Of a stretch of 60,316 bases of DNA, positions 22,256 to 60,194 are shown one piece after another. The translations under genes were made by a program, and so were the position numbers. The stretch spans positions 1 to 60,316 of the IMG/VR virus record IMGVR_UViG_3300022074_007082; one strand, written 5' to 3'. The DNA is from a virus. How positions within the stretch are numbered: position 1 is the first letter of the stretch; every line of letters starts with the position of its first letter. The notes under the pieces were generated by a model. That model saw only the letters and a program-made list of their open reading frames with translations, ran no database searches and had not been told where the DNA came from.

Positions 22256-22273
22256 TACTTTTTTTCCCATGAA

Positions 22274-22282
22274 CTATTTATT
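22274..22282 (+). promoter_or_regulatory. Candidate late promoter (CTATTTATT)
   Basis: CTATTTATT lies in the only gap between the sigma-factor gene and the start of the tail block. It differs at one position from the CTATTTATA found in three other gaps. With T4 late-promoter geometry (octamer at -13 to -6), transcription would start near 22288, one base before the ATG of the next gene. No Shine-Dalgarno sequence is seen. Confidence 0.55.
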
Positions 22283-22288
22283 TTTGCT

Positions 22289-22579
22289 ATGAAAGACTTA
22301 GAAGCATACATTGACGAAGCAATCAAAAACATAAGAAGTGATCGTGCTATCACAACAACCCTCTTGATGGAACTGATGGAATACATCAAGAAGGAAGACG
22401 GCAGAAAAGAAACTGTCGGCACAATCGCTGCAAAATATGTTGAAACACTACAAAGATCAAACGAACAACTTGTAAAGATCTCCACCCTCTTACAAAAGAA
22501 GGCTGGTGCAGAACAGGGTCTCACTGACGAAGACAAGAGCGAATTGTTTGATCTTATAAAGGAATCTGCTGATGGTTGA
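22289..22579 (+). CDS. Hypothetical helical phage protein
   Basis: The 96-residue protein is charged and predicted to be almost fully helical, with coiled-coil-like spacing around ETLQRSNEQLVKISTLLQKK (about residues 52-71). No known domain is recognised. It opens the tail block directly behind a late promoter candidate and overlaps the M15 peptidase gene by 8 nt. No ribosome binding site precedes the ATG. The CTATTTATT motif ends 6 nt upstream, so the message may be leaderless. By position it could be a small packaging or virion accessory protein, but nothing in the sequence proves this. Confidence 0.68.
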   Translation: MKDLEAYIDEAIKNIRSDRAITTTLLMELMEYIKKEDGRKETVGTIAAKYVETLQRSNEQLVKISTLLQKKAGAEQGLTDEDKSELFDLIKESADG

Positions 22580-24332
22580 TCCAGTTAAGGACAAAACGCC
22601 GCCACCAAAAATGAGGGAGCGTAGACTTCTAAATGTTGGATTTGGAGTATTAAATCCTTTAGGGGAATCTCTGTCTGGAAAAAACTTCACACCACATAAT
22701 GTATCCTCTCTCGACGCAGTTAGAAAGTCAACGGTAGATCATTTTTCCGAGCACTTGCTTCAAAAGTCTGGTCATTTCGTGGGCATTGTTCTCAGGGTAG
22801 ATGGATCCATCAAAGACGGAGCCGTCGATCCTAGCCACTGGTCGACGTCCACCAGTTTGTTGGTAAAAAAGGGAGACGAAACTTCAATACCAGATCTCCT
22901 GCAAGTCAGAGTAAGAATCCCTGAATTACACTCCCACTTGCCTGTTCCTGAGTGGTTGCCCCACCCCGAAGCTGGGGGCACTCACGCTGACAAAGCTCAT
23001 GAGATAATAAATATGTATCCTAGTTTTGTGGCTGCCTCTGAGCTTTTAACCCAAAGAGGAGAACCAGAAAGAGGTTCCTTGGTGTGGGTTGATTTTCAAA
23101 ACAGAGCAAACTATTCAGGACCAACTTATTATGATAAAGTTCAGGATATAACTACTTTTGGAACCGGCGAGGAAGAAGGTTCTGCCTCGGAAGAAGATCT
23201 TACATTATCCGAAAGGTTGGATGAAGGGGATTACGTTCCTGAATATGTTGAAGGAACTACCACAGTGGTCTTGAGTCGCGGTCACCCAATCATAAAAAAA
23301 GTATACAGAAATGAAAAAGGAGAATTGAATAAAAGTGCGACTTATGCTCCAAAAAATCAGAGAGAAAATAGGGTGAGATATTTTGCTTACGGAGATCTTA
23401 AATCAACCCCCGGCGCAAAAAATAATCTTGTTGAAGTTCCTGAAAATATGCGTACCAAAAAATTGCAAGTCCATACTTTGCTTCTCGATAGGCTGTTGGC
23501 TTTGAATGAGTTGTGGGCAGAATATTATGAGAAAAATGGATTAGGTAGCAAGACGATACCTTCCGGGGCTCCGGGAGCCGGAAAGCCTTATACAAATACT
23601 TTAAAAGTTACATCAGCTTATAGGAAAAAAGAATATTCTTTTGCTATAGGGGACCCTAGGATAAACGATTTACATTGTCCCGGACTTAAAAAGTATTGCA
23701 GAGATGCGCGAGACCCAAGTAAGGGAATTGGGGGAAGAAAAGCAATGGGATATAAATCTTGTAGATCCGCCCGCAGCGCTGTTGCATTTATGTCTCCCCA
23801 TATGACTGGTCTTTGTGTGGATTTCGGCAATAATGGTATTTCCACAAATGGCAAAAAAAAGTCGGGTATGAGAAAGTCAGAGGCTTATAAGTTTTTATTA
23901 AATTATGCTTGGCTGTTTGGTCTTTATCCCTATAGTGCTGAAACTTGGCACTTTGAATTACAAATGCCTAGAGAAAGTTGGTTTAGTGGATATGAATTTG
24001 CTTCTGGGCTGGATTCTGCGGATCGTGTAAGAGTGGCTGAATTAGAAGAGGGGGCTACTTCATCCCCCTCGGAAGATGCAACATCAATGGACAAATTGAT
24101 AGAAGTCGGAGGCTTAAAGGGAGAAGAGTGGGACTGGCTAGCAGGAAAAGAGTTTGAATATGCCGTGTGGGTTGAAGAGTCTGTCGATTATTATGACACC
24201 CTTACAGGACCGAAGGTCTTCACCAGCAGCAAAGACAAGTTCACGGTAGGCTATAGAGACTCGATTCCCGGAAAAGAATACTTTATCACTTCTAATCTGG
24301 CAATCAAATATTTAAATCCCCCAACTTCTTAA
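22572..24332 (+). CDS. Virion protein with M15 (VanY-like) peptidoglycan peptidase domain
   Basis: The 586-residue protein has a metallopeptidase domain in its middle. HMTGLCVD (His410 to Asp417) matches the HxxGxAxD zinc motif of the M15 D-Ala-D-Ala carboxypeptidase / L-Ala-D-Glu endopeptidase family. SAETWHFEL supplies Glu457 and the third zinc ligand His460. An upstream SAYRKKEYSF segment (about residue 345) is the usual SAYR start of the domain. About 300 N-terminal residues and a 100-residue C-terminal part are unrecognised and probably attach it to the baseplate. The likely job is local cell-wall cutting during DNA entry; release lysis is less likely because the gene is within the tail block. 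It starts by an 8 nt overlap. Confidence 0.82.
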   Translation: MVDPVKDKTPPPKMRERRLLNVGFGVLNPLGESLSGKNFTPHNVSSLDAVRKSTVDHFSEHLLQKSGHFVGIVLRVDGSIKDGAVDPSHWSTSTSLLVKKGDETSIPDLLQVRVRIPELHSHLPVPEWLPHPEAGGTHADKAHEIINMYPSFVAASELLTQRGEPERGSLVWVDFQNRANYSGPTYYDKVQDITTFGTGEEEGSASEEDLTLSERLDEGDYVPEYVEGTTTVVLSRGHPIIKKVYRNEKGELNKSATYAPKNQRENRVRYFAYGDLKSTPGAKNNLVEVPENMRTKKLQVHTLLLDRLLALNELWAEYYEKNGLGSKTIPSGAPGAGKPYTNTLKVTSAYRKKEYSFAIGDPRINDLHCPGLKKYCRDARDPSKGIGGRKAMGYKSCRSARSAVAFMSPHMTGLCVDFGNNGISTNGKKKSGMRKSEAYKFLLNYAWLFGLYPYSAETWHFELQMPRESWFSGYEFASGLDSADRVRVAELEEGATSSPSEDATSMDKLIEVGGLKGEEWDWLAGKEFEYAVWVEESVDYYDTLTGPKVFTSSKDKFTVGYRDSIPGKEYFITSNLAIKYLNPPTS

Positions 24333-24349
24333 TAAAATGGTGAATAAGT

Positions 24350-25372
24350 ATGAGTAGTGTAATAGAAAAAAGTCATTTAGAGAATTTATCAAAGAGCTTA
24401 AAAAAAGCTCTAGATCAAAATCAGAGCAGCACAAATCCTGTTACTAGGTCACAATTCTTGGGATATGGTAACGGTAAGAAAATAGAACCTATCCCAAACT
24501 ACGTACAGGCTGAATGTGAAACTGTCTATAAGGGAGCAAACAATTCTTGGATCACTCTAGGGAGAGATAGACCTGCTAGTTTAGCTTCCGGCTATGGTGG
24601 ATCTGGGGACTCTCATGCTGGAGCTATTGATATCTGCGTTGGTCGCGCTGCTAGATCTGCTAGGGCTGTAAATGAAACCTCCTTAACAACTGACGATGAA
24701 ATCATCACTGGTCTTTTGGAAACAGGAACAGTACCCAGTACACGTTTGCAAGTTCATAACGACTTTAAATCAGATGCAGCCAGAATATATATAAGCCAAA
24801 AAACAAATGTTGATGATAATTTTGGTATTGTACCGGGACTTCAAGGAAGTGCTTTTCCAAGATCAGCAATCGCTTTAAAATCTGACTTAGTTAGAATTAT
24901 TGCAAGAGAGAATATTAAACTTGTTACAAGAACCGACGACACTAATTCCCAAGGAGGATCGGTCACTGCTGTTGGTGGTATTGATTTGATCGCCGGTAAT
25001 GATGATTCAGACTTGCAGCCACTAGTAAAAGGCAATAATCTAGTTGAACTTTTGGAGTATATGTTGGAGGATATTAGGATCTTGGCTAGCACAGTTTTTG
25101 ATTTAGCCTTGGCACAACAAACATACGAATTAATTCTTACGGCGCACACTCATCCTGTATTGCCCGGAGGAGATCCAATAACTGCTCCTTCAATTGGCGC
25201 AGCCCCATCAGTAACTGTTGGAATCGGCACAGCAGCAAAATCTATTAAGTCACTAATTACATCATATCCTGATCTTGTGATTACTAATATTAATAGTTTA
25301 TTAGAAGATTTAGAATACTTAAAAGGATTCGGCGGAAAGCATATACTTAGTAAGAAGAACAATACTAATTAA
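24350..25372 (+). CDS. Baseplate spike/hub-like virion structural protein
   Basis: The 340-residue protein contains an ARIYISQKTNVDDNF segment, SAIALKSDLVRIIARENIKLV, a glycine-rich beta region and TAHTHPVLPGG near residue 252. The pattern of beta-strand repeats followed by a helical C-terminus is like virion structural proteins of T4-like cyanophages placed beside the tail lysozyme region. HTHP.L.GG is a metal-binding-like loop also seen at the tips of baseplate spikes. No signal peptide is present. It lies between the M15 peptidase gene and the giant structural gene, with a weak ribosome binding site. A baseplate or spike role is inferred from position and similarity; the exact T4 equivalent is not clear. 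Confidence 0.65.
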   Translation: MSSVIEKSHLENLSKSLKKALDQNQSSTNPVTRSQFLGYGNGKKIEPIPNYVQAECETVYKGANNSWITLGRDRPASLASGYGGSGDSHAGAIDICVGRAARSARAVNETSLTTDDEIITGLLETGTVPSTRLQVHNDFKSDAARIYISQKTNVDDNFGIVPGLQGSAFPRSAIALKSDLVRIIARENIKLVTRTDDTNSQGGSVTAVGGIDLIAGNDDSDLQPLVKGNNLVELLEYMLEDIRILASTVFDLALAQQTYELILTAHTHPVLPGGDPITAPSIGAAPSVTVGIGTAAKSIKSLITSYPDLVITNINSLLEDLEYLKGFGGKHILSKKNNTN

Positions 25373-25386
25373 TTAACGGTGTAACA

Positions 25387-28300
25387 ATGTCATTAGCTCA
25401 AAGCGCATATTTTAAAGCAAAACCAAAGCAAAATGTGAAGGTAAAAGCAATTGCTTCTATTGAGCTTCCCTTTTACGAAGGTTCTGCAAAGGGTGATTAT
25501 TATGCCGCAAATTCAATCCCTAGTAATGGCGTCCCGAGAAAATTAACTAAAAACGGAGTCCTTTATAGCGACGGTGCATCATCCCCCGTAAATACAACTT
25601 CTTGGATGAACCCCAGTTCAGAATATGGATTCAGGACCCCCGAGGAGCAATATGTATATCGTTACGGCACTGAATATTCAGGCAATAATATAGCTGGAGA
25701 CGCAAGTAGCAATAAGGTTTCCTTCGAGGCAATATATTGTGAGTGGGATAAATATAAATTTTCAAACTTTGTTATCGAATCCTTGGTCGGAAAGGCTCTG
25801 ACACAAGCAATCGCATACAACTATTTTGGTTATCCAATCTCAAATGTTAGCAGAAGAATCGATTTAGATTACGATAATGAGCAAGACATTGCGTGGGGAT
25901 TCGGAAGGATGCCCAATTTAGGTTCGGCAGACCCCCTAGAGCCAGTTCCTGTAGAAGATATGAACATGAATGCCGGATCTATCGGCGGCTTCATTACTCT
26001 AAGGAATAACGGGGCAGACATTTCAGCCGCACTTACAGGCATAAATCCCGTCACTGTCGCCAATGATATTACAATTCTAGATGAAAATACAAACGATGAT
26101 GTTTACTCTAGATATGTAAAGATGCTAGGAGCATACAGAAAGGGCGGCACCACATTTGTTAAAGCAGATGAATTTGTTCAATACTATACAAATTCGCATA
26201 TTTTTGAAATTAGAGATTATCCAGTTAATCAGCCGTCATTGTTCGGAACTCCCCCTGTTTTCGGAGGAAAAAACAACTCAGGTACAAAAGAAAACAACCC
26301 CTCTTTAGGTGAGCATGAAGATTTTGAGAGTGGGAGATCTCCAGATGAAAATTACCTTTTTATTAAAAAATTAGATGCAGAAGGATCTCTAGGATTAATT
26401 TCAGTAGACTTGTCTGATTCTAGCACTTTAAAGTCTATACAGGATAAAGCTAGCGAAAAATATAACAACGTATATCAGCCAGTCGGCAAAACACAAGCGA
26501 GAATGTGGTATCCGAGTTTTCAAACCTCTCTGTCAAGCAGCCCTCTCTATGTGACAATGGGTGGATCAGATGGCATCAAAAGATCAGATTGGTATTTTGA
26601 TAGTGTAAATCTAACTCACGACAATCAATCACCGGATGGAGAGCCAGCATCACTTACAGAGGAGGAAGGCTATAACGCAAACTTTAAAACATCGAACTTG
26701 GTTTCTATGTTTAAGTTAGTGCCAGCAGGTATACCGCAAGAAGAAAGAGATAAGTTTGTAAAAAATCCTCACTTTACTCTCAACCACATATTGCCAAAGA
26801 TGATGGAATATGTAGCTAAAGTTGTTCCACAAAATCCAAGATTTGCTGGTCCAAAGCCTGCATCTGTAGAGCCGGGAGCAAAGACATTCAAGCCCTATCT
26901 TTCTTGGTTTGAAAGTGCGACAGTAAAAGAAGCGGATATTGAAACTAATGATGTTGATTCTTCAGAATTAGAAGAGGAAAACTATTATTCAGGCTGCTCT
27001 CCCATACAAGTTCATAGAGTAGTCTCAGGTAGTTTCTTTGAGTTTCAAACTGGAAGGAAGTACATAAACGCTCCATATTTGGCTAGAGACCCTAGACCAG
27101 AGGTGGTCTTAAACGGAGAATTGACCCCCAATTCAAAATATGAAAAATTAGGCACTCAAGAGAAGAGAGTTGCAAATGATAAATATAGCATCGGATATTT
27201 TAAGAAGTCCACAAGCCAGCCTCCGCAAGTAAACATAGATTATGCTTCTAAGTTTGGTCTCTGGAACAACGACTGGATCGGAGGCTATGCAGCGAAGTAT
27301 TATAAAAAAGACGGTACTTCTCAAAATGATTCGACTGTGCCACCAAATTCAGAGGGATATTCGACATTTACATCGGTGAGACCCGGCGGGTTCATGGTTT
27401 TGCCTAGAAATACTAGAACCATAAAATCAATGCTGAATTCCTTACCAACTCAGAACTTTTATGGTCTTGAAGCTATAGCCGAAGCTATTGATAACGGCGC
27501 TCAATCTTTTGAATTAACAAAATTGGCTTCCGATTTGTGGCTGTCATATCATTTTGCTACAAAGCCAAACGGAATGGGCTTCACTGATAACCTTCCCGCA
27601 TACTATTCAGATGCAATTAGGACGACTTTTGCAGACTGGGACAACGAAGCAAAATGGGTCGACCTGACTTTCACATTGAATACCTTATACGACCAGAAGG
27701 TGGTAAATGGCAGTGATATTCAGTATTTTCCTAGTCCAAGCATTGAGGATGTAGATCCTGCTGAACTTTATGGAAGCAAGTTTTCTTTGTTTAATGATGT
27801 AAAACCATTGTTGTTTTCTGCAAATAACACCAATTATATAAACAAGCAACAGGGCTATGCAGGACGTCCAAAAGTATCTACTGGCTTGCAAGATCCCGGT
27901 ATCCATTCATTCGATCAATTTTTAAATTCACAAAGCATCCAAGACGAGCGCGGCGCAAATGTCCCAGTAAAAGTCAGGAGAGTATCTCAATTAGAATTCC
28001 CGATATGGAATTGGAAAAGAGGCGGCGGAGAGGGCTGGGCTGATCTAGACAGCATTAATTGGCCATCTTTGATTGAAGATCCAGCAAATTCAAATTCCCC
28101 ATATGCAACGTCGGGGTTCAATACTTGGAAAAAGTACGTTGAGCAACAACCTGCATTACTAGAGCAGGCTAGAGAATGTGTCCCTAATTGGGTCAAGTCT
28201 TTAAGGATATATCCAACAGTTAAAGAAGACGCTTTAAAATATGGATTTATACCAAATACTTTACCGATCACTAAGCAAAAGATAATTTTTAAAAGTGAGT

Positions 28301-31300
28301 GGGACCTAGATGATGCAATCAAGAAGCTAGGAGAAGGTTCAGGTAACGGAAACATATTTGAAGATTATTTCTGGAGTTTTGAAGATCAATTTTCAAACAA
28401 TAGCTTGGAAAATATGGATTTAGCTTCCCAGCAACAAGATTATCTAGCTCAAGCATACAGTTCAGACATAACCAGCCTTAAGAGTTATAAGTCTAGTGAT
28501 AATATAGAGGATGCATGTCACCCTTGGATGACTCTAAATTTCGAGATTGATAATAATATCAACAGTGATAAATATAGAACTGCTGTCGATAATCTTAACG
28601 TTACTTTGACCTATGCTGTTGAATTAGAAATAGATGAACCCAAATTAGTATTAGACTTAGTAAAAATGGGCATTGTTGGTCTAGCAGGGACTTCTGCTCA
28701 GTATGTAGAGTTGGGCATAGACTTGCAAGAATTGTTTGATACTGTTGGTGGGTCAAATACTCTTTATTCTGAAAGTTTATTAAGCGGTTACGAGGCTTAT
28801 AACGCATCGTCTAATCCAAACGCCGGATCGCCTGTTGACTTTGGAGCATTCCCTTCTGTACTCCATTCATCCGATATTTCTTTTGAAGCTCAAAAGGCAG
28901 CGTTGGAAGCGCAGCCGATTATTAATGAAAAGATTGCAGAAGCTAAAAAGAAATACCCAGAGATAGATAATCCAATCAACAGTTATATCTGGCTCAAAGA
29001 TTCTTCTAAGAAAACAGCAATATATTCAAAGCCATCAGCTAGATCTACGATCCTAGGATATGTAGATAATTTTACAACTGTAAGGGTTCTTAAGGAGTGG
29101 GTCAATGGTGTTGGTGATTTTAACAGAATTAGAATACTTGACGAAACTACAGGAGAAATGAACAAAAAGTTGGGATATGTTGCCCCTGAGATTCTAGAGC
29201 CTGCTGTTGAGGATTTCTTCTTTTCAACTGGGATATCCGATGGCAAAGGTGTGTTTGATAACGGATCTCCGAAATTATCTCTTAAGCAAACACAAATAAA
29301 AGATATGTCTGAAATGGCTCGTGCAGTTGTCCCTACATGGTGGAAACAAACTGAACCATATTATTACCTTCAAGACGGAGAATATTGGCATACTGTAGAG
29401 TTGTTTGGCGAAGACTGTGTTATTGATGATACCGACTTAGAAGCAAAAAAAGAAGTTGCAATGCAAATTGGGTTAAGACAGCTTTTCGACTTTTATGGAA
29501 AGAAATATACAGACTCAACAATAAATAAGTTTGCAAAAAGCTATTTGGCTGCAAGAATTGATGGTTATATATTAGATATGCGCCCCGGATCCAGTATTAA
29601 GTTTTTGCTTAAGGTGGGAGGAATCTATTTTAATGCCATACCAAACAAGAAAAGAAGCCTTAATTCACTAAAGAAAAATACTCCTTATAAAATAGGGTTA
29701 AATCAGCAGTTTTATGAAAACCACCTAGTGCAAGCGCTTTATGGTCTAAACAGGATTTATTTAGATATAGCAACATCTGAATACACCCTAAGAGGGATTA
29801 ACTTCATAAAAGAGATTGAACGTTTAGAGCAGGTCCCTCTTCTTCTCAAGAGGATGTTGGCTGTCAACAACGTCGATGTTACAACAAGCGAAGAAAATAC
29901 AATAGAATTGGGGTTTGATTATTCATTTAAGCTAATTTATATTTCTTATATAGAAAGATCTACTGGCAAAGAGAGGATATTAGATGTTGGATACGGCTAT
30001 TTTACTAGTCTGAATCCTATAAATAACCCAAACACCATGTCTCTCTTTTATAATCACAGAGCATTACGCAATCCGTTATTGAAGTGGAGAGATGCGGTAA
30101 ACAAATACTTTATCAATCCAAAGCCACAAATTATCAAAAAGAATACTCCGTCAAAAGCAGACCCGTCAGCCAATAACGTTTGCGGACCCTTAACTTACAA
30201 CCTCCCCGGCTGGAGGGACATACTGGGTCCAATTGCTGCGAATTTAGATAAGCAATTGGCACTAGATCCTAGATTTGATCTAGGGTCTTTTCAATTTAGT
30301 TTGTATAAATATTTGCCTCCGTGCCCCAAGCCACCATCTGGAGTTGGAGACACATTCCTATATGGTGAGTATGAAATTAATCAAGAAAAAGAATTTTTTA
30401 CTAATTTAGAAGCTTTGACACAAATTGAAAAAGCTTTTGATTTAGATAACGCCAAAGAATATGTGGGAGATTGGTTCTCATCAGCAGATGCAATTGATGA
30501 TATTAGGGCTAAAATATTTGATCTAGAAGACGTAGAAAAATATATGGGAAGTCTCTTTGGCACAAATATGTCTGAGATTATAACAAATATATACAGCAGA
30601 ATTTGTAAATGTTTTCTCGATATAGCAGGCATTGACACAGTTACATTGCCGAATCTGGAACTTGATGCAAATGCTGGCTCCATTGGTGCGAACTTAAATC
30701 CAAGCAATATATTAGATCCCAATACAGAAATAGGTCAAATACAAAACCCATCAGCAAGTGGAGTAAACCCTTTCAGTGATCCGGGTAAAGACTTCGACGC
30801 AGAAAACTTGTTCTGCTCCTTTTGTATAGAAATACCATCGTTCTTTCTTAGGTTGCCCACAACAAACATTATGGATGTGATTGTGGCAGCATTGAAGAAA
30901 TTATTAGAATTATTGCTAGCCCAATTAATATTGGCTCTTATTCAAGCACTGTTGGATATTTTGTTAACCTGTCCTGAGCTTTCTTGTCCTGAAGGCGAGA
31001 GAAACGTAAGAGATTATGGCGCAAATAATTTAGCTGATATTTTCACTGAAGACTCAACTGGAACACCAGTGCCAGCATTCTTTCAAGGGTGTGGTCTTAT
31101 AATAGACGACCAACAATTGACTGCTGACGAAGTTTTAGCTTTCATGGATACGATTTCCCGAAGATTGACATCGGGAGAGTGTCTGTCTTTGATAACAGGT
31201 GGAATCAACGATGCAATGATGAAGGTTGCGAAAGAAGAGATAGCAAAATATCCCGGCATACAAAACCAATTGGATAACGAAGCCAAGATAGAAGACTTTT

Positions 31301-34300
31301 TCGCTTGTGCTGGCATAGGTCTTCCGCCTGAAACTGTAGCCCAATTAGAAGATGACATATTAAATAAATATAAGGACCCAGAAGTGTGTTCAAATATTTT
31401 AAATGATGCAAAAGAAAAATTGGCTGAAAGATGTGGGGCTTCTGATTTACTAGACGCTTCCGTTGACAATGCTTTGAACTTTGATATCGATAAATATAAG
31501 AAGCTTGCAGATGCAATTAGAAAAAACCAAAACTTATCAAATGACATTCCATCCCTATTTGGTGACTGCTTTGGTAACCAAGGTGTGTTAAGTGGGTTAC
31601 CAAATCCAGCGTTGGATTTTGCGGTAGAACAATCTGTAGAGGCTATTGTTGAACCAGTTAGGAGAGCAATGAAAAGAGAATTGTTTAACTTGACAAAGCC
31701 AATATTGGACTTAAACAGTTCTAGCAGCAGCCCAATCGCAACTCAAGCTGCTTTAGTTAACCACAGCCCAAAGATAGCAGATATGAAGAGAAGCAATTCT
31801 ATGGCAAATGCAATAGAGCTTTGCAGCCTCCATTCAGGCTTGCCAGCGGCATCAACTGCAATGATCATCGCCCCCGGAGCAGGAATCCCAATTGCAATCG
31901 CCGCTTTATCTACATTCCCTAGTTTTACAGGAGACACTACTTTTAAGGATGTCGTATTTGGAGCAAACATAAAAGTTAACAAAAACTTGCAATTAGAAAG
32001 CGCAGATGAAACCCTGCCAATCGATGTAGTGTTGGCTGACTTGGGAGATAATATAATCATTCAAACACCTCAAGACTTAGATAATGAAGGGGCAACAGCT
32101 AGAATTACAGTCCCAATCAACGAAGCGACAGGGGAATCCATGCAGCTTCAGCTTCTTCCTGCGTCAACTGACGACGACGGAAATATTATATACACTGATA
32201 ACTATTCTCTAACTTTGACTGTCAAGGATACACTAGGGGTCGAGGGCTTGGACACAATCCAGCTAATTCCAAAAGACAATCAGTTGCCTGACCAACTGGT
32301 AAATCACTTACAAGACTATAGCGTTGACACTACATCAAAAAGCCCACCACAGGCACAGTATTTCGCAGAGCTTGTATTAAGTAATCTAGAAAAAGATTCA
32401 GGAAGTGATGGGCTGACAGAGGAATTTAGAACATTTCTAAAGGAAACCCTAGAGAATGATATATATTGGACTATCTGGAGAGCATCTTTAGATTATATGG
32501 CTGATTCTCTTGCAGATTGCGAACTATTAAGAGAATATGAGCTTAATAGGCAAGATGAATTCATTGGATTTAATCCGTTTCTTTTTATTCCGGGACTGGC
32601 TGTTGTAATAGGTCTTGCTGGTGCTACAACTTCCGTGGGTCAAGAGGAGGCAAATCTTTTTTACGGTGGTAAATTTTTAAGAAAAGAGATGACCAATCTA
32701 GATATGCAATCTTATGGCGATACAGACGGAATCATAAACATTGAAAAACTAAAGAAAACAATAAAAGACAACTATGATTTCTCCAGAGCACATGATCCAA
32801 ATTCAGAACAAATGGGTATGCCACATTATGCGATTTTGCAAGGATTAATGTCAGGCTTAATTCAGCTTTTTGTTGGAGAAATATTCGTTAGAGGTATTGT
32901 GCCACTTTCTAAGTTTCCCATCGATGTAATGACCTCTGAAGAATACACCGTAGAAATTATCTATAGAAATATGAGCGAATGGCTGAATACGGGCTCTCCC
33001 GAATTTAAAGTGAAGTTTGTTAAAATAATGAGAGAAATATTCAAGCCCTGCAATAGCAAAACAATCTTATTTGTGTCAGATACCCCAGACGATGAAACCG
33101 CAGGAATCCCCGGAACAGCTACTGGCTTTGAAAAGGACTATAGAATAGAAAGTTGGGAAGATGGTTTGAGGTTCTTAATTAGACAGGAGATGTATGGACC
33201 GGCAAAGTTTATTAAAAACAAACTCGCATCCTTTAAGACATCATCTGGAACCAGTATAGCTCCGGCAAACCCAGTTACTGCCATAACTTATGGAAAAATG
33301 CTGTCAGTTCCCGATGGGGCGTTCCAGAGAGAGCAGGACAACAACTCATTGTTCAGCGGTGAGAAGAAAGAAGCATTTAAAAATGGTAAGTTATTTTTAC
33401 AGTATTATTTTGAGGTTGTTGATTGGGAACCAGAAGACGAGCAATACAATGCTGCTGTCGCACAAAGAGACGAAAGCTTAAAGGGAATATTGAGCGAAGA
33501 CAACTTTGTAGAATTAATATCAAGGCTCTGTGGAATTCCAACTGGTTTTCCTCAAAACTACGAATCTAATAACGCTATCTTGACAAAATCACCAGAAGGA
33601 GATACTGCATCAGACGATCTTGATCTGCCTTTTAAAGATTTATTCAAGGAGATTAATTTTGGATTAAGAATGTGCTATGGAGCCATTCAAACAACACAGA
33701 CGGAAACTCCCGGCGGAAAGCCGATATTAGAAGATCAAAATCCAAAAATATCTAATTTTATTAATAAGATAAAAGAATTTGTAAACCTTGGCGACGGAGA
33801 GATATTATTTCTTAACGAAAATGAACAATCTCCATCCTTGACGCCACAATACGTTCCGGGTCCACAGGATGACATATTTAAATTTTCCAAATTAACTAAG
33901 TCATTGCTGTTGGCAGAAGATTTTAGAGGATTTGCCGAGTACGGCGTAGACACTCCCGAGTCTAATGCACTAGGCGCAACTTGGGAAGTGATTGATCCCC
34001 TATATACTGTTGTTCTGCCTTTGTTTACTCAAAAAGTTAGAATTGCTGGCGAAGGGTCTTACGAGGGAGGGTATCCCCTGTTCAATAGTAATACAGCTAC
34101 TTTGAATTACTTGGCAGACCAATTTAGGCTCTTCACTGCTAGCGCAGCCTCTGGCACTGGATATCCATCCAAGGTTATGAATAAGCTTAGTCTAGACTTC
34201 TTTACAAGCCCTGAATATGAAGGAATATTCAGGTATGCAATCCCCATTCCTAAAATGGCTTCCATGTTAACAGTACACAACGTCGCAATTGCAAGTAAGG

Positions 34301-34410: not shown

Positions 34411-34441
34411 ACTTAAACGGTTAAAAAATATACATAAAGTT

Positions 34442-34450
34442 CTATTTATA
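34442..34450 (+). promoter_or_regulatory. Candidate late promoter (CTATTTATA)
   Basis: CTATTTATA lies in the 59-base gap between the giant structural gene and the gp25 gene, matching the motif at 48404 and 56827 exactly. With T4 geometry the start of transcription would be near 34456, giving a 14-nt leader that includes a GAGG ribosome binding site 7 nt before the ATG at 34470. Confidence 0.65.
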
Positions 34451-34469
34451 GGAAAAGCGAGGACTTCAT

Positions 34470-34868: not shown

Positions 34869-34916
34869 TATTCAATATTTATTACTACTTATTAAAACAA
34901 AGGAAATACTTTTCAT

Positions 34917-48381: not shown

Positions 48382-48403
48382 TAATGTTTTTTATGTTCGC
48401 TAG

Positions 48404-48412
48404 CTATTTATA
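48404..48412 (+). promoter_or_regulatory. Candidate late promoter (CTATTTATA)
   Basis: An exact CTATTTATA lies in the 37-base gap before the gene at 48419. T4 geometry puts the transcription start near 48418, one base before the ATG. No ribosome binding site is present in the gap, so a leaderless mRNA is predicted, as at 22289. Confidence 0.62.
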
Positions 48413-48418
48413 GACGCC

Positions 48419-49453
48419 ATGGAATTTTTTGATAGAAAAGAAGAAGTTATAGATATTCAACTTACTCCGTATGGAAAGTATTTGCTTTCGTCCGGGAGGT
48501 GGAAGCCGAGGTACTATGCCTTTTTTGACAACGACGTGATATATGACGTTGCTCACGCATCTATCACAGAAAATCAAAAAGATTCATCCGACAGGATTAA
48601 AGAATCAGTAAGGATGAAAAATCAATCAATCCTTTACGGCATTGAAACATCTTTTAACAGATTAACAAAAGAATACAACATTCCAGAAAAGCAGGGCACT
48701 TGGACACCTCCATCAGACCCAACGCTTCCATCGTTTCCATTGCCACCATATGACAATTACACACAAAATTATGATTTACCATTGGGGAATAGTTCTTTAA
48801 ACTCGACCTTTTTCCCTTCTTTTGATGTTAGGTTTTATTCTGGATTTATGTCAAGTTCTTCAAATCATTACACGGGCTCTATTTCCACGGGAGGTGGAAT
48901 ACCCGAGGCAATACCACAAGTTAATTGCAACTTGACTTTCAAGACCTCTATCGGTCAAGAGCTTGAATTTCAATTGTCCGATGAGGAAACTGCTGGTCCG
49001 ACTACCGAGCCAGCAGAGAAGTACTTAGAAAGCGGACCTCCTGAAAATAGAAAGTATAGTGCTGAAACTTATGCAGATGGAACTTACATCTCGATTGAAT
49101 TGAAAAGATTATTATTTGATGTTCTTGAGAAAAACAGTGTTATTGATAAAGAAAATTTTGACTTGGAAGTCTATAAAGTAGAGACTGTTTCAAAGGGTGG
49201 CCCACAATCAAAGTATGAAAAAGAGCAGCTAACACCCTTAAGATTTGTTAGAGAAGACCCCAGCGGTCAGATAGTTAATATAGGTGAGTCTATTTACAAC
49301 AAGATGACAAACAAGTATTATGAAATTGATAGTAGTTTTGTTGAATACTATTTTGATATTAGAGTCGATAACGAGATAGAACCAGTTCTCACAGAGAGTC
49401 CAAGTGCGATAGTGTTACCAACGAATCCAGAGGAGCCATGTGTTGATCAATGA
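48419..49453 (+). CDS. Virion structural protein with LTxxGxxxLxxG N-terminal module (A)
   Basis: The 344-residue protein begins with a roughly 45-residue module (VIDIQLTPYGKYLLSSGRWK, then YYAFFDNDVIYD) that is also found at the start of the product of 56886. The middle is proline- and serine-rich (residues about 95-150), followed by an acidic beta region. No signal peptide is present. Similar N-terminal modules occur in structural proteins of marine T4-like phages. It begins a new late transcription unit, immediately after a CTATTTATA motif with no ribosome binding site. It ends in an ATGA overlap with the 1344-residue gene. Role: baseplate or tail accessory, inferred. Confidence 0.7.
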   Translation: MEFFDRKEEVIDIQLTPYGKYLLSSGRWKPRYYAFFDNDVIYDVAHASITENQKDSSDRIKESVRMKNQSILYGIETSFNRLTKEYNIPEKQGTWTPPSDPTLPSFPLPPYDNYTQNYDLPLGNSSLNSTFFPSFDVRFYSGFMSSSSNHYTGSISTGGGIPEAIPQVNCNLTFKTSIGQELEFQLSDEETAGPTTEPAEKYLESGPPENRKYSAETYADGTYISIELKRLLFDVLEKNSVIDKENFDLEVYKVETVSKGGPQSKYEKEQLTPLRFVREDPSGQIVNIGESIYNKMTNKYYEIDSSFVEYYFDIRVDNEIEPVLTESPSAIVLPTNPEEPCVDQ

Positions 49454-52400
49454 GTTTAATTACTTCTACAAATAAAGTCTCAATGTCAAGCTTGGATGAA
49501 TTTGGGTTTGGCTTGCCTACAATAAGCATAGTATCTACTGAGCTTATAAGTGATATCTCTTCTTTGCAAGCGAAGCAAGATCCTCACATCGATCATCCCG
49601 GCGAAATTAGTGTACGAAGCTTAAAAAAGATTGATGATACAAACGAAAATAGATCTTTAAAGGTGAGACTAAGACTTTCTTTTAAAGAAACTATCGATCC
49701 GAACGGAGATTTTGCGTATATTAATGCTGGCAAAGACTTGAAATACTTTAAGGTGGCTGTTTTTCAAAGTTTAGATTTTGGTGTCACCGACAATTGCAAT
49801 TATAATACATTAAATCCTAGAAATGGACCTTATTTTAACAACACAGGTGCAATTAAGGGCTTAAGTAAGCAAGTTGGTTCTCCGGGAACAAGTCTAGAAA
49901 ATATAACGAATTTAATCATAGATGCGTACAATAACGCACAGCAGAGCAATAGTGCTTTAGATTTTTCTGCCGATGCCTTAGTTAATAATATTCCGTATGC
50001 AAAAACACAAGACTCTTCAGGGAATACTCTCTACGATATTCCTCTCTTATTTAATTTTGATATCAAGCCCAAAGAGGGCGGGTCAAACCCAGATCATTTG
50101 GCTTATTTTGTTTTTTCATATTTTGATGTCGATGAATACTTGAAAGATGTGAAAGAAACTATTGGACAAGTATTGACCAATGATGATATAATAGACAACA
50201 CATTAGATGAATTAGAAAGCATGACTATGGGAAATATCACATCAGACATCGTTATACTAAATGGTCAATTGCAAGAAGAGGCGTATATATTTCAAGATTC
50301 CAATTTGAATTACTATACAGGACCTTATCACCAAATGTCTGATGGTCAATTTATGAAAGGGGCTTATCATTTGCAGAAGGCGTATGATCAAACTGATTAT
50401 TTAAACAAGATAACGGTCCCTAATTCAAAAATCATTGATAACAGAGAAATTGCAAAGCTAGACAAGGTTGATTACAATTATGCGAAAGTAGCAGATTTTC
50501 TTATTAACCCAGACACTATCCAGACCATTACAAATCCGGGAACAGAGGGTCTTTTAAAAATAGAAAATCCTGTGTTTTCAAAGATGTGGTCAAGTCATGA
50601 TATAACAGGCAAAAATAGGTTTTTATTTTCTATAAATATGGAAAGCCTACTTCTTAAGAGCACAGTATATCCGGGACTTTTGACATCTTTAAAGAAATCT
50701 GAAGAAAGCGGAAATGGAGTTGTGTATTCCTCTCTTTTATCTCAAGTGCAAATAAAAGAATTAAAAATAACAAGAAGGAGAGTGAAAGATTCAATCAATC
50801 TTGATTCAAAGATTAGTAAAAAAAGCTATTCAAAAAACGACAAGCCACTACTAATAGTTCACTCTGTAGATCAAAATGGAAAACTGTCCTCAAAAGTTGA
50901 GATTTCAACAAAATTAGAAATGAGAGTTTCTAATGCACCAAAAAAAGTTGCAACTATTTCTGAAGTTAATATTGACAAGATGAACAAGGGACTAAGAACT
51001 TTTTCTTGTACAGATATTAATGTTAGTGAGAAAGCGGGAGGATTATACGAGTATACTGTAGAACTAGAAGTATCAGACCCAATCCCAAAGTTTCTACAGA
51101 GCAAAATTCAAGAGTTAGAAATACTGCTTTATGGCAACAATTCTTCTAAAGGGTGGAGTAGTTATCTTGAATCCACAAAGGATAGCAACTATTTTGATAG
51201 CTATTCAAATCGATTTAATGTGCAATTTCTTGATCTTTACAACGCTGAATTCAACAACACAGAGGGCTTAACGTTTGTTTCGGATATCATATTTAAATTT
51301 ATGAGCTTGATTTCTCAACTAGACGCTCAAAATTCTCTAAACAACCCCGGTGCGATTATAAAAGCAGCCTCATACCTCATACAGATTTCCGACCCCAACA
51401 CAGGAAACCCAGTGGGGGTTGAGACTGTTGCTGAGTTTATGGATAACACAATTTCATCTCTGCAAGGACTTTTACAAAATACAACATCATATAAAAAAAT
51501 GTCAACCTTGCAAGGTGTTGGAAATTCTCACGTTAAAAACTCAACTCCAAAATTAAACGGAGCTTCATCTTCAAAGACATTTAAAATTTCTCACACGTTC
51601 AAGGAGTTATTCGAGGCTTCTAATACAAGTCGAGATGATCCGTTTGGATATGATTTTCTTTCTACAACACAAAACGCACAGCCAACAAATCTGGGTGGAT
51701 TAAGGACTCTGAACGTTGATGATTACATCAACAGGTGTACGCTAGAAAACAAAAAACTGTTTTTAAATGAGGATGTAGACTTCGAGATAGCTGGACCTGA
51801 CGAAACTGTATATAATCCCGGAGATTCTTTGTTGAACAGAAAATTCTGTTTTTTATCTCCTTCTTTTGTATATGTCCCGAAAAGAGCACCCGGCAATTTA
51901 ATATCGAATAACATTACAGTTAGCGAAGCTGCCGATTTAGCTTTGGACATTATAAGGTACAACAAGGATTCATCTCAGCTTTCATCAACAGGTGGCACTT
52001 TAAATTTATCAAATAGCCCTAGGTCGCTGGAGGTTGATTTGCCAGAAGACACGCAAAAAAGAAGGCTTGATTTGGTTGAATACTTGGCATCTAAAGGTGC
52101 TACTTTTAAAGTGGAAGAGGCTACTTCTGTCATAAACCAAGGACGAGGAAAAACTAGCACGTTTCCTATTAAGTATGGCTTCAACAGACCCTCTTCTAAG
52201 TCAGATGTTGATGATTTTCTTAGCGATGTAAAGAATATATTTCATGCTAGTTCAAAAAATATCCTTAATTCCGCTGTTAATCCAAATCGTCTTTTGATCG
52301 CGATGACAATGCTTAGTGATATGGAATACAAAATAAAGATTTCAAAATTCTATAACTACAACAATATCACATATTATGATTTATCTGACATTGATAGGGC

Positions 52401-53484
52401 TAAGAGAATAAGAAAAAAGATTAATAGTGAGGGAGTCCACGTAATCAATGGTATGCCAAATCATACTAAATCTTTAATCTTTTTATCCAAAACTGCAATT
52501 AACACAATTGGATTGACTACGCCAATAACAAAATACTTTAACAAGACCAAGAAAGATCCATTTAAGGTACCTCACTTTTTTCCTTATATCAATTTCAATT
52601 ACAGGGTTTTAAACAAGATTCAAGTCTTCAATGGCTTTGATTCACCAAATGGGAGTGCGAATATTAACGGTAACGGTAAATGGAAAGATTTATCACTCTC
52701 GGTTCTAAATAAGATTGAGAACGGTCCTGAAACAAAATATTACCTTTGCCGACAGGTTAGGTTTGTGGATAGCATTTCAGTTAAGCCTGCAAAAGCAATT
52801 GAAATGCCATTCTATGATGAATATTTTCTATTGACAAATAAGGAATTAAACATATTTCCCAATCCCGAATCATTTGAGGCTTTCTTTTCCAATGACATAA
52901 CGTCTGGAGCAGGAGTGCTAGAGCAACAAACGCCCAATGCGTTGTTTGATAATTTAATGCATAAAGAAAATAGAAAAGTTAGCAAAACTGGTAACGGCGG
53001 ATACTTAAAGACAGAGTTCATGCAAACAAACATTGGCTTAGGCGACAGGAGCCGACCTCCATCAAATGACATATCTGAAGATATAACAACTAGTGCTGGT
53101 TTGACAGAGGGCAATGACAAATTTAAGGCGGCAAGAAATCTCTCCCTTCTGGAGCAGGCTCAAATATTAGATGCTATGGGTCTTTCAAAGATGCTGAGAG
53201 GGAATAATGTTAACAGCAACATTGCCAAGTTGAAAAATGAAGGAACAACGAATCGAGAAGGTAGATCGCTAACAGAACAAGAAGCGGAATTATTAAAAAA
53301 TAGCTCAGTTTCTAAGCAAACTAAGCAACAAATAGATAAGGCAATAAAAATAAAAGCCCCAACTGGAACTGGCAAAGCCGATCCGGTAAGCTCTAGAGGC
53401 GGATCCGGCGGTGGAACTGGTGGTGGCGGATCCGGCGGTGGAACTGGCGGCGGTGGCTCTAGTGGCGGCGGAGGAACATACTAA
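49450..53484 (+). CDS. Large virion structural protein (1344 aa) with glycine-rich C-terminal tail
   Basis: The 1344-residue protein is part of the late tail block. No domain is recognised with confidence. It has beta-rich segments in the first 700 residues and helical segments around residues 1000-1290. The last 30 residues or so are nearly all Gly, Ser and Thr and end in Tyr, which looks like a flexible linker; the DNA there contains a 27-bp tandem duplication. It is translationally coupled to its upstream gene (ATGA) and followed after 11 bases by the 1100-residue gene. Virion location is inferred from context and size. Confidence 0.7.
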   Translation: MSLITSTNKVSMSSLDEFGFGLPTISIVSTELISDISSLQAKQDPHIDHPGEISVRSLKKIDDTNENRSLKVRLRLSFKETIDPNGDFAYINAGKDLKYFKVAVFQSLDFGVTDNCNYNTLNPRNGPYFNNTGAIKGLSKQVGSPGTSLENITNLIIDAYNNAQQSNSALDFSADALVNNIPYAKTQDSSGNTLYDIPLLFNFDIKPKEGGSNPDHLAYFVFSYFDVDEYLKDVKETIGQVLTNDDIIDNTLDELESMTMGNITSDIVILNGQLQEEAYIFQDSNLNYYTGPYHQMSDGQFMKGAYHLQKAYDQTDYLNKITVPNSKIIDNREIAKLDKVDYNYAKVADFLINPDTIQTITNPGTEGLLKIENPVFSKMWSSHDITGKNRFLFSINMESLLLKSTVYPGLLTSLKKSEESGNGVVYSSLLSQVQIKELKITRRRVKDSINLDSKISKKSYSKNDKPLLIVHSVDQNGKLSSKVEISTKLEMRVSNAPKKVATISEVNIDKMNKGLRTFSCTDINVSEKAGGLYEYTVELEVSDPIPKFLQSKIQELEILLYGNNSSKGWSSYLESTKDSNYFDSYSNRFNVQFLDLYNAEFNNTEGLTFVSDIIFKFMSLISQLDAQNSLNNPGAIIKAASYLIQISDPNTGNPVGVETVAEFMDNTISSLQGLLQNTTSYKKMSTLQGVGNSHVKNSTPKLNGASSSKTFKISHTFKELFEASNTSRDDPFGYDFLSTTQNAQPTNLGGLRTLNVDDYINRCTLENKKLFLNEDVDFEIAGPDETVYNPGDSLLNRKFCFLSPSFVYVPKRAPGNLISNNITVSEAADLALDIIRYNKDSSQLSSTGGTLNLSNSPRSLEVDLPEDTQKRRLDLVEYLASKGATFKVEEATSVINQGRGKTSTFPIKYGFNRPSSKSDVDDFLSDVKNIFHASSKNILNSAVNPNRLLIAMTMLSDMEYKIKISKFYNYNNITYYDLSDIDRAKRIRKKINSEGVHVINGMPNHTKSLIFLSKTAINTIGLTTPITKYFNKTKKDPFKVPHFFPYINFNYRVLNKIQVFNGFDSPNGSANINGNGKWKDLSLSVLNKIENGPETKYYLCRQVRFVDSISVKPAKAIEMPFYDEYFLLTNKELNIFPNPESFEAFFSNDITSGAGVLEQQTPNALFDNLMHKENRKVSKTGNGGYLKTEFMQTNIGLGDRSRPPSNDISEDITTSAGLTEGNDKFKAARNLSLLEQAQILDAMGLSKMLRGNNVNSNIAKLKNEGTTNREGRSLTEQEAELLKNSSVSKQTKQQIDKAIKIKAPTGTGKADPVSSRGGSGGGTGGGGSGGGTGGGGSSGGGGTY
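53398..53451 (+). repeat. 27-bp tandem repeat coding a Gly/Ser/Thr linker
   Basis: Two adjacent 27-bp units, 53398-53424 and 53425-53451, each starting GGCGGATCCGGCGGTGGAAC, differ only at two positions near the unit end. They encode GGSGGGTGG twice within the C-terminus of the 1344-residue protein. The repeat keeps the frame, so unit number could vary between isolates. Confidence 0.9.
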
Positions 53485-53495
53485 GTAGGTAAATT

Positions 53496-56400
53496 ATGTC
53501 TGGTTTTGGTTTTACAGGAGATCCCTCGGAATTTGGAGGACAACAAGCTGACACTTCCAGCAGCGAAGGCGCAGGTTCGTCTAGCGCAAGTAATTCTGGG
53601 GAAACGTCCGATGAAGCGAAAAAGTCTTTTGTAGAGTTAGCTAAAGAAATGGAGGACCAAACCGAGGACGAAACACTCCAAGGAATAATCCAACAACTAA
53701 TTGCAGATAACAAATACACTATCGATGGCGGAGCACTTGCTCTAGGTGGGGCATTAGCAGAAAAGTTCGGAAAACAATTAGAAAGATTTCAGAATGACCA
53801 CAGCCTTATAGCGCACAGCGGCATCCTGTTCAGTGAACAGAAAGGGGAACTTTATAATTATACAGAAAATTTCTCCTATGATCCGATTCGCTCATCAGTA
53901 GGCTCAATATGGTCAAAGAGCCCCCTTGATATAATTAGGTATCCTAGCTCTGTTTCTAGTGGTCAAAAAGGTGCCGCAGAGAAATTTAACAAATTGTTGC
54001 ACTTAACAGAAGAGGAAATACAAGAAAGGTTAGGACCAGAGGGTATTTCTTTTGGTTACAAATACTTGCCCAAAGTAAAATTTAAGTTTAGTAACAAGAT
54101 GCAAAACTGGGGCGCAACACACATGATGTTTGGCAGACCAGCAACGCCAGATCAAGATGATGATGCAGGTATTAGATGCCGAGTGCTCGACATTGGGCAG
54201 GTACAGTATATGTATTTATATTTTGATCTAAATGGGTATGCCGACTATTTCAAGCCGATTGTTCCATTCAATATGCTTTTTAACGCAAAGCATAAATTGG
54301 AAGGATACTCTTACAAGTCCTCACTAGATCCCACAAAGTTTAAAACTTTAAAATTTGATGCGGTCAGTGGTGGCAGCTTGACGAAATTTGATGCTTCTTT
54401 TATATCCAAGGGAAACGCTGATCTGGAAAAAGTTCAAAGCATTGCAGCCAATGGAGTTGAGATAATTGAAGGTACCCACCCCAATGTAAACCAAGAGGCA
54501 GTCATCGATGACCTAGAATCTAAACTTTACATCGATGAAGTGTTTTCAAGCCAAGCAGCAATATCTGAAGAAGCTGTTCCGTTTTTTGGCTCCGAAGGAT
54601 TACAGGGAGAGTTGTTAGCCGATGTAAAGCCGGTATATAATTTCTTTTCCCCAAAGTGGGAATATGCCTCAAAAGCACTAACTGAGAAGATGGTAGGAAA
54701 CATATATGTTGCCGCCGCTTGGAAAAACAAATACGATTGGCTACCAACGCAGTTTGATTTTGAAAAGTTCGCCAATAGTTTTATTATATGCGATAATGAT
54801 CCAGAATTCTTTAAGGAAACTTCAGCAGTCAAAATAACAAACAATGTTGTAATTAGTCAGGATAGCTTACTGCTTGATACAGCAGAGGATTTAAAAGAAC
54901 AATTTCCGATGTATAATGAGATTGTGTTTTCTGCTATCCCGCAAGGTGATTTAGGAAAAATCTTCCATGAAAGCGGTATGACCACAGAGTTTTTAAAGAC
55001 ATTGTTAACATATGTATATAATGATTATAGTGCCCCTTCGGCAGAAAAAATAGGTCAAATTGCTAAAGTGATAGGTTTCGCAACACAGCAGCCATCAATG
55101 GTGTATCCCCAAAATGCTACATTCATATCTAAAATCAAGGAGCCAGCTTCAATTGACTTGTTTACGGATGACCAAAAGACCATTCAAAACCAAGACGATA
55201 TGGTTACATTTGACTTTTTAGCTTGGCTAGAGTATTACATTAATGAAATAAATGGCAATGTTTCTAATAATGAATTTAAATTATACAATGACGAAACATA
55301 CAAGCCATATACAAGTTATTTCGGAGACAAAGATTTTCAAAATATATTCCAAAAGAAGTCTGGCTTATCTTTCAAGAAAGTTCTAGGCTTGGTTAAGTTT
55401 TTAGCTTCTGCAAAAAACAATGTTAAAAGCAATTTTAGGGCATACCATGATATATTAGGTGGCAAGAAAGCAACGAGCGATATCCTATATTATAGAATAG
55501 AAAAGAAATCACAAAAAACAGGCAATGTAATTCAAAACTTTTTCGTTATGCCACAAGAGATCGATCCAGATAAGGGCTTTCAGTCTCAGATAAAAGTAAT
55601 CGACACCCAAGTTAGATATGCTCAAGCTTATAGATATGAAATATATGCAGTCAAGGTAGTTGTTGGTACTGAGTATAAAATATTGACTGCTCCTGACGAG
55701 TCACAACTGCCCTTGTTCGAGGCTAACTTGTTTTCTGACACGACATTAAATTCTGAGCAAGCAATCAATCCTCCTTTGACAATATACCAAAGACACTTGG
55801 CTACAGGGCAAAGTAATCTATTGAATCTCTACCCTATGTTTAGCCTAGGAAATAATAACGAAAATGGCAGCCCAAATAAATATGTTATGCCCATAAAGCT
55901 TTCATTAAGACCGACTGTTAAAATCTATGAAGTGCCGCTGTATAAAGAGCAGGACGTGTTGATTTTGGACAGCCCTCCAATGCCTCCACTTGTTAATGTA
56001 TATCCTTTGAACGGCAAGAAGAACAATATATTGCTTACTCTTGAAACGCAGACTGGGGACCGAGAACTAACGCCGATTCCAATCGAAACAGCGGATACCG
56101 CTTATTTTGTCACAGAGAGGTTTTCGCAGAAGAGAGATATCTCCTATCCGGGAGGTGGTTATGTTTACCCAACATTGAGATTTAAATCAGACGATGACTC
56201 CTCTTCATATCAAATCTACAGACTTGAAGGGACTCCGCCAAAAAGCTACAGTTCATTTCGGGGTAATCTGTATCAGGCTTTGAATAAGATGGCAAAAATT
56301 CCACAAGCAGGGTTTGAGGATACGATAAAGGTTAATACAAAATATTACTATCTCTTTAGAAGTGTAGATATGCATGGCAATGTTTCCAATCCTTCCCCAG

Positions 56401-56798
56401 TATACGAGGTGGAGATGGTTGAGGCATCTGACGGTGTGTTTTATCCCATTATAAAAGTGATGGATATGGACGAGATACAGATAAGCTCTTCAGAGAATGA
56501 AGTTACTGATATGACTTCGACGACAAGGACGCTCAAAAAAACAAGCTACATATTCCCAGCAGAGCAACAGTTGGAGTTGAACGAAGAGGCTTCTAATATT
56601 GATGGCTCTACTGCCAATGTTCCAACTAACGATCCCGTGTTAGGAATAGCATCGGAAACTATTTGGGGTAAAAAGTTTAAATTTAGATTTGTTTCAAGGC
56701 ATACTGGTAGAGCAATAGATGTCAATGTCGATTTTAGCAAAGAGCATACTAAACCACAACAAGCAACTGAGCCTTGTTTTGATGTAGAGGAAGAATAA
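53496..56798 (+). CDS. Large virion structural protein (1100 aa)
   Basis: The 1100-residue protein has a low-complexity, Ser/Gly/Asp-rich N-terminus (residues about 10-40, with SSSEGAGSSSASNSGETSD) that could be a flexible or proteolysed leader. A mixed alpha/beta body follows. The C-terminal third has fibronectin-like beta strands (PPMPPLVNVYPLNGKKNN, YYYLFRSVDMHGNVSNPSPVYEVE), the latter being the typical Y-x-Y-x-V-R-x-x-D-x-x-G-N-x-S pattern of FnIII-type domains at about residues 945-975. FnIII-like folds are common on phage tails and assist surface binding. It starts 11 bases after the previous gene with an AGGT ribosome site. Virion location is inferred from context. Confidence 0.72.
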   Translation: MSGFGFTGDPSEFGGQQADTSSSEGAGSSSASNSGETSDEAKKSFVELAKEMEDQTEDETLQGIIQQLIADNKYTIDGGALALGGALAEKFGKQLERFQNDHSLIAHSGILFSEQKGELYNYTENFSYDPIRSSVGSIWSKSPLDIIRYPSSVSSGQKGAAEKFNKLLHLTEEEIQERLGPEGISFGYKYLPKVKFKFSNKMQNWGATHMMFGRPATPDQDDDAGIRCRVLDIGQVQYMYLYFDLNGYADYFKPIVPFNMLFNAKHKLEGYSYKSSLDPTKFKTLKFDAVSGGSLTKFDASFISKGNADLEKVQSIAANGVEIIEGTHPNVNQEAVIDDLESKLYIDEVFSSQAAISEEAVPFFGSEGLQGELLADVKPVYNFFSPKWEYASKALTEKMVGNIYVAAAWKNKYDWLPTQFDFEKFANSFIICDNDPEFFKETSAVKITNNVVISQDSLLLDTAEDLKEQFPMYNEIVFSAIPQGDLGKIFHESGMTTEFLKTLLTYVYNDYSAPSAEKIGQIAKVIGFATQQPSMVYPQNATFISKIKEPASIDLFTDDQKTIQNQDDMVTFDFLAWLEYYINEINGNVSNNEFKLYNDETYKPYTSYFGDKDFQNIFQKKSGLSFKKVLGLVKFLASAKNNVKSNFRAYHDILGGKKATSDILYYRIEKKSQKTGNVIQNFFVMPQEIDPDKGFQSQIKVIDTQVRYAQAYRYEIYAVKVVVGTEYKILTAPDESQLPLFEANLFSDTTLNSEQAINPPLTIYQRHLATGQSNLLNLYPMFSLGNNNENGSPNKYVMPIKLSLRPTVKIYEVPLYKEQDVLILDSPPMPPLVNVYPLNGKKNNILLTLETQTGDRELTPIPIETADTAYFVTERFSQKRDISYPGGGYVYPTLRFKSDDDSSSYQIYRLEGTPPKSYSSFRGNLYQALNKMAKIPQAGFEDTIKVNTKYYYLFRSVDMHGNVSNPSPVYEVEMVEASDGVFYPIIKVMDMDEIQISSSENEVTDMTSTTRTLKKTSYIFPAEQQLELNEEASNIDGSTANVPTNDPVLGIASETIWGKKFKFRFVSRHTGRAIDVNVDFSKEHTKPQQATEPCFDVEEE

Positions 56799-56826
56799 AA
56801 ACTTTTGTTTGAATTGAATTTAGTTA

Positions 56827-56835
56827 CTATTTATA
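56827..56835 (+). promoter_or_regulatory. Candidate late promoter (CTATTTATA)
   Basis: An exact CTATTTATA lies in the 87-base gap before the gene at 56886. Predicted transcription start near 56841 would give a leader of about 45 nt carrying a strong AAGGAGA ribosome binding site at 56871-56877. This leadered arrangement suggests abundant expression of the gene that follows. Confidence 0.65.
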
Positions 56836-56885
56836 ACGAAATGCTAATTAAATAAAATACATAGACAGTTAAGGAGACATAAAAA

Positions 56886-57812: not shown

Positions 57813-57839
57813 GCTTTAACAACAGGCAGGACTTAAACA

Positions 57840-58994: not shown

Positions 58995-59009
58995 GAGGTA
59001 ATATCAATT

Positions 59010-60188: not shown

Positions 60189-60194
60189 TCTCCT

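Follow-up and report, generated by a model that had tools for sequence, protein, structure and literature searches.

The closest described counterparts of the element reported here are the late promoters of bacteriophage T4 and its relatives. In T4, late structural genes are preceded by a single AT-rich -10 box, TATAAATA, which is read by the sigma factor gp55 and has no -35 element (PMC2988020; PMC7892883, PDB 7d7c/7d7d). Cryo-electron microscopy of the T4 late complex showed that gp55 flips A-12, A-9 and A-8 into pockets, and both the formation of open complexes and transcription suffer when alanine replaces gp55 residue N13, L54, R57, F86, H95, Y97 or T99 (PMC7892883). The late promoter of Aeromonas phage Aeh1 is (a/g)CTAAATA (PMC2988020), and cyanophages and Pelagibacter phages use NATAAATA (S-PM2, PMC2984593; S-SRM01, HTVC008M). 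We analyzed a 60,316-base fragment of an uncultured virus (IMG/VR record IMGVR_UViG_3300022074_007082; this whole stretch is called the window), in which every gene lies on the + strand and a gene for a gp55-like sigma factor is followed by gaps that carry boxes of the type ACTATTTAT. With a probability of roughly 0.86, we interpret these sites as the -10 boxes of late promoters in a large, mostly marine clade of phages related to T4, read by the gp55-like sigma.

A preliminary description of this DNA had listed four such promoters at the starts of tail operons, and its coordinates were correct. The octamer CTATTTATA lies on the + strand at 34442, 48404 and 56827, with no further copy on either strand and hence none inside genes, as had been claimed. 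The variant CTATTTATT lies at 22274, directly behind the sigma gene (18 nucleotides, nt, past the stop of gene 21572-22255), and all four sites are in gaps on the coding strand. Their number was too low, as a fifth site, CTACTTATT, was found at 34885. All 5 of the 5 window gaps of at least 30 nt contain CTA(T/C)TTAT, and gaps make up ~0.6-0.9% of the window. By number alone, CTATTTATA is unremarkable for this base composition (3 against 1.22 expected, equalled by 16 of 100 shuffles), but its placement is not. All four + strand copies of CTATTTAT fall in gaps, where 20,000 dinucleotide shuffles gave at most 2; in the same number of shuffles at most 2 of the 5 gaps of at least 30 nt carried CTA[TAC]TTAT, compared with the 5 of 5 observed. 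Chance occurrence is ruled out by these shuffles. The two antisense copies of CTATTTAT within genes (- strand, ending at 20555 and 35629) are no excess over chance.

The motif census covered the window and ten relatives (1.376 Mb), with genes in the relatives predicted by a simple codon-usage method and start-codon calls of our own; sites from close relatives are not independent, and P values are nominal. A comparison of gaps with coding sequence that had been set beforehand gave a strong result: CTATTTAT occurs 77 times in sense and 5 times in antisense orientation in gaps, and 33 and 14 times, respectively, in coding sequence, which is a 37-fold sense density in the gaps. The motif model reads A-13 C-12 T-11 A-10 w-9 T-8 T-7 A-6 t-5, with -9 often A or C in the relatives. 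The octamer first described is therefore a real motif, of which ACTAwTTA alone is conserved and the last A is not. In unseeded 7-mer counts, CTATTTA or CTACTTA came top or near the top in the gaps of most clade genomes (relatives G018 and G020 are small fragments with too few gap bases for judging 7-mer enrichment), and CTACTTA is a major variant in relative G014 (12 against 0.8 expected). The same counts also ranked CTTGACA, a sigma-70-type -35 element, and AGGAGA, a Shine-Dalgarno sequence, and showed no enrichment of sense ATAAATA in the clade. For the control phages, the de novo motifs agreed with the published consensus: ATAAATA was seen 26 times against 6.0 expected in T4, 45 against 4.3 in S-SRM01, 19 against 4.3 in HTVC008M, 28 against 6.6 in OC and 12 against 0.7 in pf16, and CTAAATA 24 times against 2.1 in Aeh1. 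Among these six T4-type controls, CTATTTA showed no enrichment beyond 5 against 2.8 expected, in T4. We found no report of the clade motif in the open-access library searched.

The clade box shares with the T4 late promoter the single AT-rich -10 position before late structural genes and the letters T-11, A-10, T-7 and A-6, but A-12 has become C, A-9 has become T, A or C, A-8 has become T, and -13 is mostly A. Aeh1 shares the purine-C at -13/-12, but retains A-9 and A-8 together with a normal short gp55. S-PM2, S-SRM01 and HTVC008M are likewise marine T4-like phages with gp55 homologs, but they have ATAAATA rather than the TTT form.

The sigma factor of the window (21572..22255, + strand, 227 amino acids) was recognized from a match to phrog_234, 'late sigma transcription factor' (E 3.6e-6; 7.6e-9 to 1.1e-4 for its relatives), and from AlphaFold models with structural matches to sigma factors. 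Its region 2 is homologous to that of gp55, as the alignment is collinear and the structural matches show a region-2 fold. Among 48 clade sigmas, the equivalents of N13, L54, R57, F86, H95, Y97 and T99 are T/V (T in 47 of 48), I/V, T, Y/F, F, Y and S. Hence N13, L54, R57, H95 and T99 are replaced, and the T4 pocket residues kept are Y97 and, in 9 of the 48, F86. The bases that gp55 flips, at -12, -9 and -8, are the very positions that differ in the clade box, besides -13. Since most pocket residues are replaced, the specificity has probably moved in step with the sigma; the shifted specificity suggested in the preliminary description is thus supported both by the de novo counts and by the pocket, although the association is a correlation between sequences and not proof. 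It would represent a natural specificity switch in a phage late sigma, in which -12, -9 and -8 change along with most pocket residues, and it would allow the recognition of late promoters by region 2 to be tested directly. We infer that the gp55-like sigma, on the host RNA polymerase core, would recognize A-13 C-12 T-11 A-10 w-9 T-8 T-7 A-6, and that transcription would start ~6 nt after A-6, toward the tail genes. Late, virus-building genes would then be switched on from a signal that departs from that of T4 at the letters the T4 sigma reads.

The remainder of the protein differs from gp55. The clamp-binding motif (LDFLYEAND in T4, LEFLQ in pf16, LSFLED in Aeh1) is absent from the aligned window and clade sigmas, which have ~75 further residues in its place. 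The sliding-clamp families PF09116, PF02916 and PF02768 (gp45-type and DnaN-type) were not found in five relatives or in Flavobacterium phage immuto by an insensitive search limited to clamps; both gp45 families matched T4 and S-SRM01 in that search. The AlphaFold models place a region-2 domain at residues ~10-117 and a helical, region-4-like domain at ~134-227. The full model matches two-domain sigma factors with Z up to 9.7, but the domain arrangement differs (root-mean-square deviation, rmsd, ~20). The C-terminal domain alone best matched the C-terminal part of sigma-H (3mzy 130-203; Z 7.6, rmsd 3.0 over 74 residues), with the next match at Z 5.3 and SigA region 4 at Z 5.0. It has no Pfam region-4 match, a Foldseek search with the domain alone returned nothing significant, and the sigma profile had no match among PDB sequences. 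A region-4-like fold of the modeled C-terminal domain has moderate support. The earlier assignment to the gp55 family holds for region 2, but this is not a standard gp55, as the clamp-binding tail is absent and a C-terminal domain has been added.

T4 has no -35 element, whereas many promoters of the clade relatives have GG at -33/-32. This dinucleotide was present at 28 of 99 testable sites in the relatives (3.5 expected, nominal P ~1e-17), at 24 of 78 sites in five divergent genomes and at 14 of 61 orthologous sites of one gene; the T4-type controls gave no peak at -33, consistent with the literature. Terminator T-tracts are an unlikely source of the GG/TTT peak, although single sites may be of that kind: the GG stays at -33, and at many sites the sequence (AAGGT, AATGGT, TAGAGGT) is not that of a terminator. 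The GG would probably be read by the extra region-4-like domain of the sigma. As far as the sequences allow a judgment, the clade box appears to work like a T4 late promoter, yet it does not belong to a standard gp55 system, which would have the TATAAATA consensus, a clamp-binding tail and, contrary to what the relatives show, no -35 element. We propose only tentatively, at slightly less than even odds, that a two-domain gp55-like sigma uses a two-part promoter (GG at -33/-32 and ACTAwTTA at -13 to -6) without a sliding-clamp tether, and that some of the late mRNAs are leaderless. Should the GG at -33/-32 and the region-4-like domain in fact cooperate, this phage group would have at least one other design besides the clamp-dependent, -10-only scheme of T4.

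Several observations weigh against reading the boxes as promoters of the gp55-like sigma. Identity to T4 gp55 is low, and hhalign against the single T4 sequence gave a probability of 3.7%. F at position 95 also occurs in 4 of 6 ATAAATA-type phages, and S at 99 in Aeh1; because such pocket changes are found in phages with the other motif, specificity cannot be assigned with certainty to any one residue. The five window sites lack a good GG copy at -33, and the element must therefore be considered optional. Some gaps have no motif, and 33 of the 110 sense copies fall in predicted coding sequence. Given that the search for Pfam sigma region 2 is insensitive and misses even the window sigma, the box could in principle be read by a host alternative sigma or by a second, unrecognized phage sigma. 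We consider this improbable, as the box sits at the gp55-type register before structural genes in genomes that have the gp55-like sigma, it changes at gp55-read bases along with the pocket residues, and five relatives gave no match to another sigma family in that insensitive region-2 search.

Reading by the gp55-like sigma would also have consequences for the mRNA. At 26 of 159 strict sites, A-6 lies 10 nt or less from the start codon, and all 26 lack a Shine-Dalgarno core at the usual position; such a core is present at 86 of the 101 sites located 15-45 nt upstream. As transcription is expected to start ~6 nt after A-6, promoters that abut the start codon would yield mRNAs that are leaderless or nearly so. 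Two window promoters belong to this short-leader class, for which the starts ATGAAAGAC and ATGGAATTT are conserved. The box ACTATTTAT at 22273..22281 (+) is 7 nt from the start codon of gene 22289, and GCTATTTATA at 48403..48412 (+) is 6 nt before that of gene 48419; neither has a Shine-Dalgarno sequence. In close relatives, too, the box stands a few bases upstream of ATG, both after the sigma gene and ahead of 48419. The 22274 box is kept in ~15 relatives as AACTATTTAT[TG]..ATG or CACTATTTATA..ATG, and at the 48404 site the orthologous loci L271, L272, L276 and L278 keep GGCTATTTATA a few nt upstream of ATGGAATTTTTT. Sites of this kind, 4-10 nt from a start codon without a Shine-Dalgarno sequence, might suggest a conserved translation or processing signal that acts in the RNA rather than a promoter, but most sites are farther upstream with a separate Shine-Dalgarno core, the box shifts freely among orthologs, and a second element stands at a fixed, promoter-like distance, which makes this explanation highly improbable.

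The orientation of the proposed promoters had to be tested because TATTTATA is the exact reverse complement of T4 TATAAATA. The preliminary description, which had likened the box to the T4 octamer with TTT in the middle, was right that the two differ (at -13, -12, -9 and -8) but overlooked this. With a looser pattern, gaps between + strand genes of the relatives contain 154 sense and 7 antisense sites, and the few gaps flanked on both sides by minus-strand genes contain 0 on the + and 5 on the - strand; the motif thus turns with gene direction. Upstream of gene 56886, 58 of 60 distinct orthologous regions have a sense CTA[TAC]TTA, compared with 2 in antisense and 2 in coding sequence of the same length, while the position of the box drifts between about -24 and -60. 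Despite the exact complementarity, a canonical T4 late promoter on the minus strand, from which the upstream tail genes would be transcribed in antisense, is rejected on orientation and conservation, in that the conserved letters are ACTAwTTA rather than the full octamer (-9 often A/C, last A variable), the box follows the downstream gene even where that gene is on the minus strand, it lies just upstream of a Shine-Dalgarno sequence or start codon, and, with sense ATAAATA unenriched, the late genes would be left without promoters.

As late promoters, the boxes make late operons recognizable in many contigs of uncultured phages that cannot be annotated by means of TATAAATA. In the window, the first promoter (22274) precedes genes for proteins of 96, 586, 340 and 3007 amino acids (22289..34410, +), of which the first three had no match in a PHROG search. 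The box TCTATTTATA (34441..34450, +), also found in ortholog L282, stands before gene 34470 (baseplate wedge, gp25-like), whose leader has GAGGA. The fifth box, ACTACTTATT (34884..34893, +), stands before gene 34917 (baseplate wedge, gp6-like), and orthologs L282-L286 have ACTAATTA or ACTATTTA at its position. Behind this pair (34470..48381, +) are the two baseplate wedge genes (132 and 600 amino acids; phrog_261, E 1e-16, and phrog_219, E 2.5e-24) and genes for 648 and 3238 amino acids. The 48404 box precedes genes for 344, 1344 and 1100 amino acids (48419..56798, +). The last box, ACTATTTATA (56826..56835, +), is conserved among orthologs and precedes gene 56886 and a run encoding 308, 384 and 386 amino acids (56886..60170, +); the 308-residue protein has homologs at 73 loci. 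A second box, CTAATTA (56844..56850, +), lies 17 nt downstream as a tandem pair. In 10 of 11 pairs upstream of the 56886 orthologs (L287-L359) the two boxes are likewise 16-18 nt apart, and three more pairs at 17 nt were seen in whole genomes, a spacing tighter than independent promoters require.

The genes that directly follow the box in relative G011 encode, among others, baseplate wedge, tail fibre, neck adaptor, tail sheath and tail tube proteins; an HNH endonuclease and many products without an assigned function are there as well. CTTGACA represents a second class of promoter, seen in gaps of G005, G008, G011 and G015 ahead of early-type genes; its linked genes include SSB, Hsp20 and an ATPase, with no recognized structural protein among them. 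We take CTTGACA to be an alphaproteobacterial-style -35 element, and its presence in clade gaps hints at the host group.

Sigma relatives occur in hundreds of IMG/VR contigs (80 kept loci, 60-93% identical), and the nearest named phages are ~31-34% identical. Immuto (NC_055915) is among the nearest cultured relatives (31%) and has the same two-domain sigma layout. A TATTTA-type motif is enriched there (38 against 5.2), but -12 is mostly A, not C (TATATTTA). Upstream of its TATTTA sites (L205-L212), G peaks at -37 and -34 in a GTTG-like, -35-type element unlike the clade GG. The Bacteroidetes host -7 element is TAnnTTTG, and the late motif of immuto is less certain because it resembles this element. 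Microcystis phage Mel-JY01 (PP395634) was not counted as support, because TATATTTG, a host promoter of the Bacteroidetes type, accounts for most of its TATTTAT signal. That promoter sequence dominates its upstream regions (L195-L204) and is at odds with the stated cyanobacterial host, Microcystis elabens; its actual host may be a Bacteroidetes bacterium present in that culture. The 484-kb phage LR756508 was also set aside, with CTATTTA at just 11 against 3.1 and no clear motif in its first 300 kb.

The window opens with a sugar-biosynthesis block that reaches ~20.8 kb; after it come the sigma gene, baseplate genes and tail-region genes of very large size. The block (13-20820), which lies immediately before the sigma gene, is an unbroken run of over 20 sugar-nucleotide, aminotransferase, glycosyltransferase, epimerase and cysteine-dioxygenase-like genes that probably serve surface or glycan decoration. 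The tail region encodes two giant proteins, of 3007 (25387-34410) and 3238 (38665-48381) amino acids. At 60194-60316, an open gene that begins MILGLDISTSIVGFTIVD..., resembling the start of a RuvC-type resolvase, is cut at the right end of the contig.

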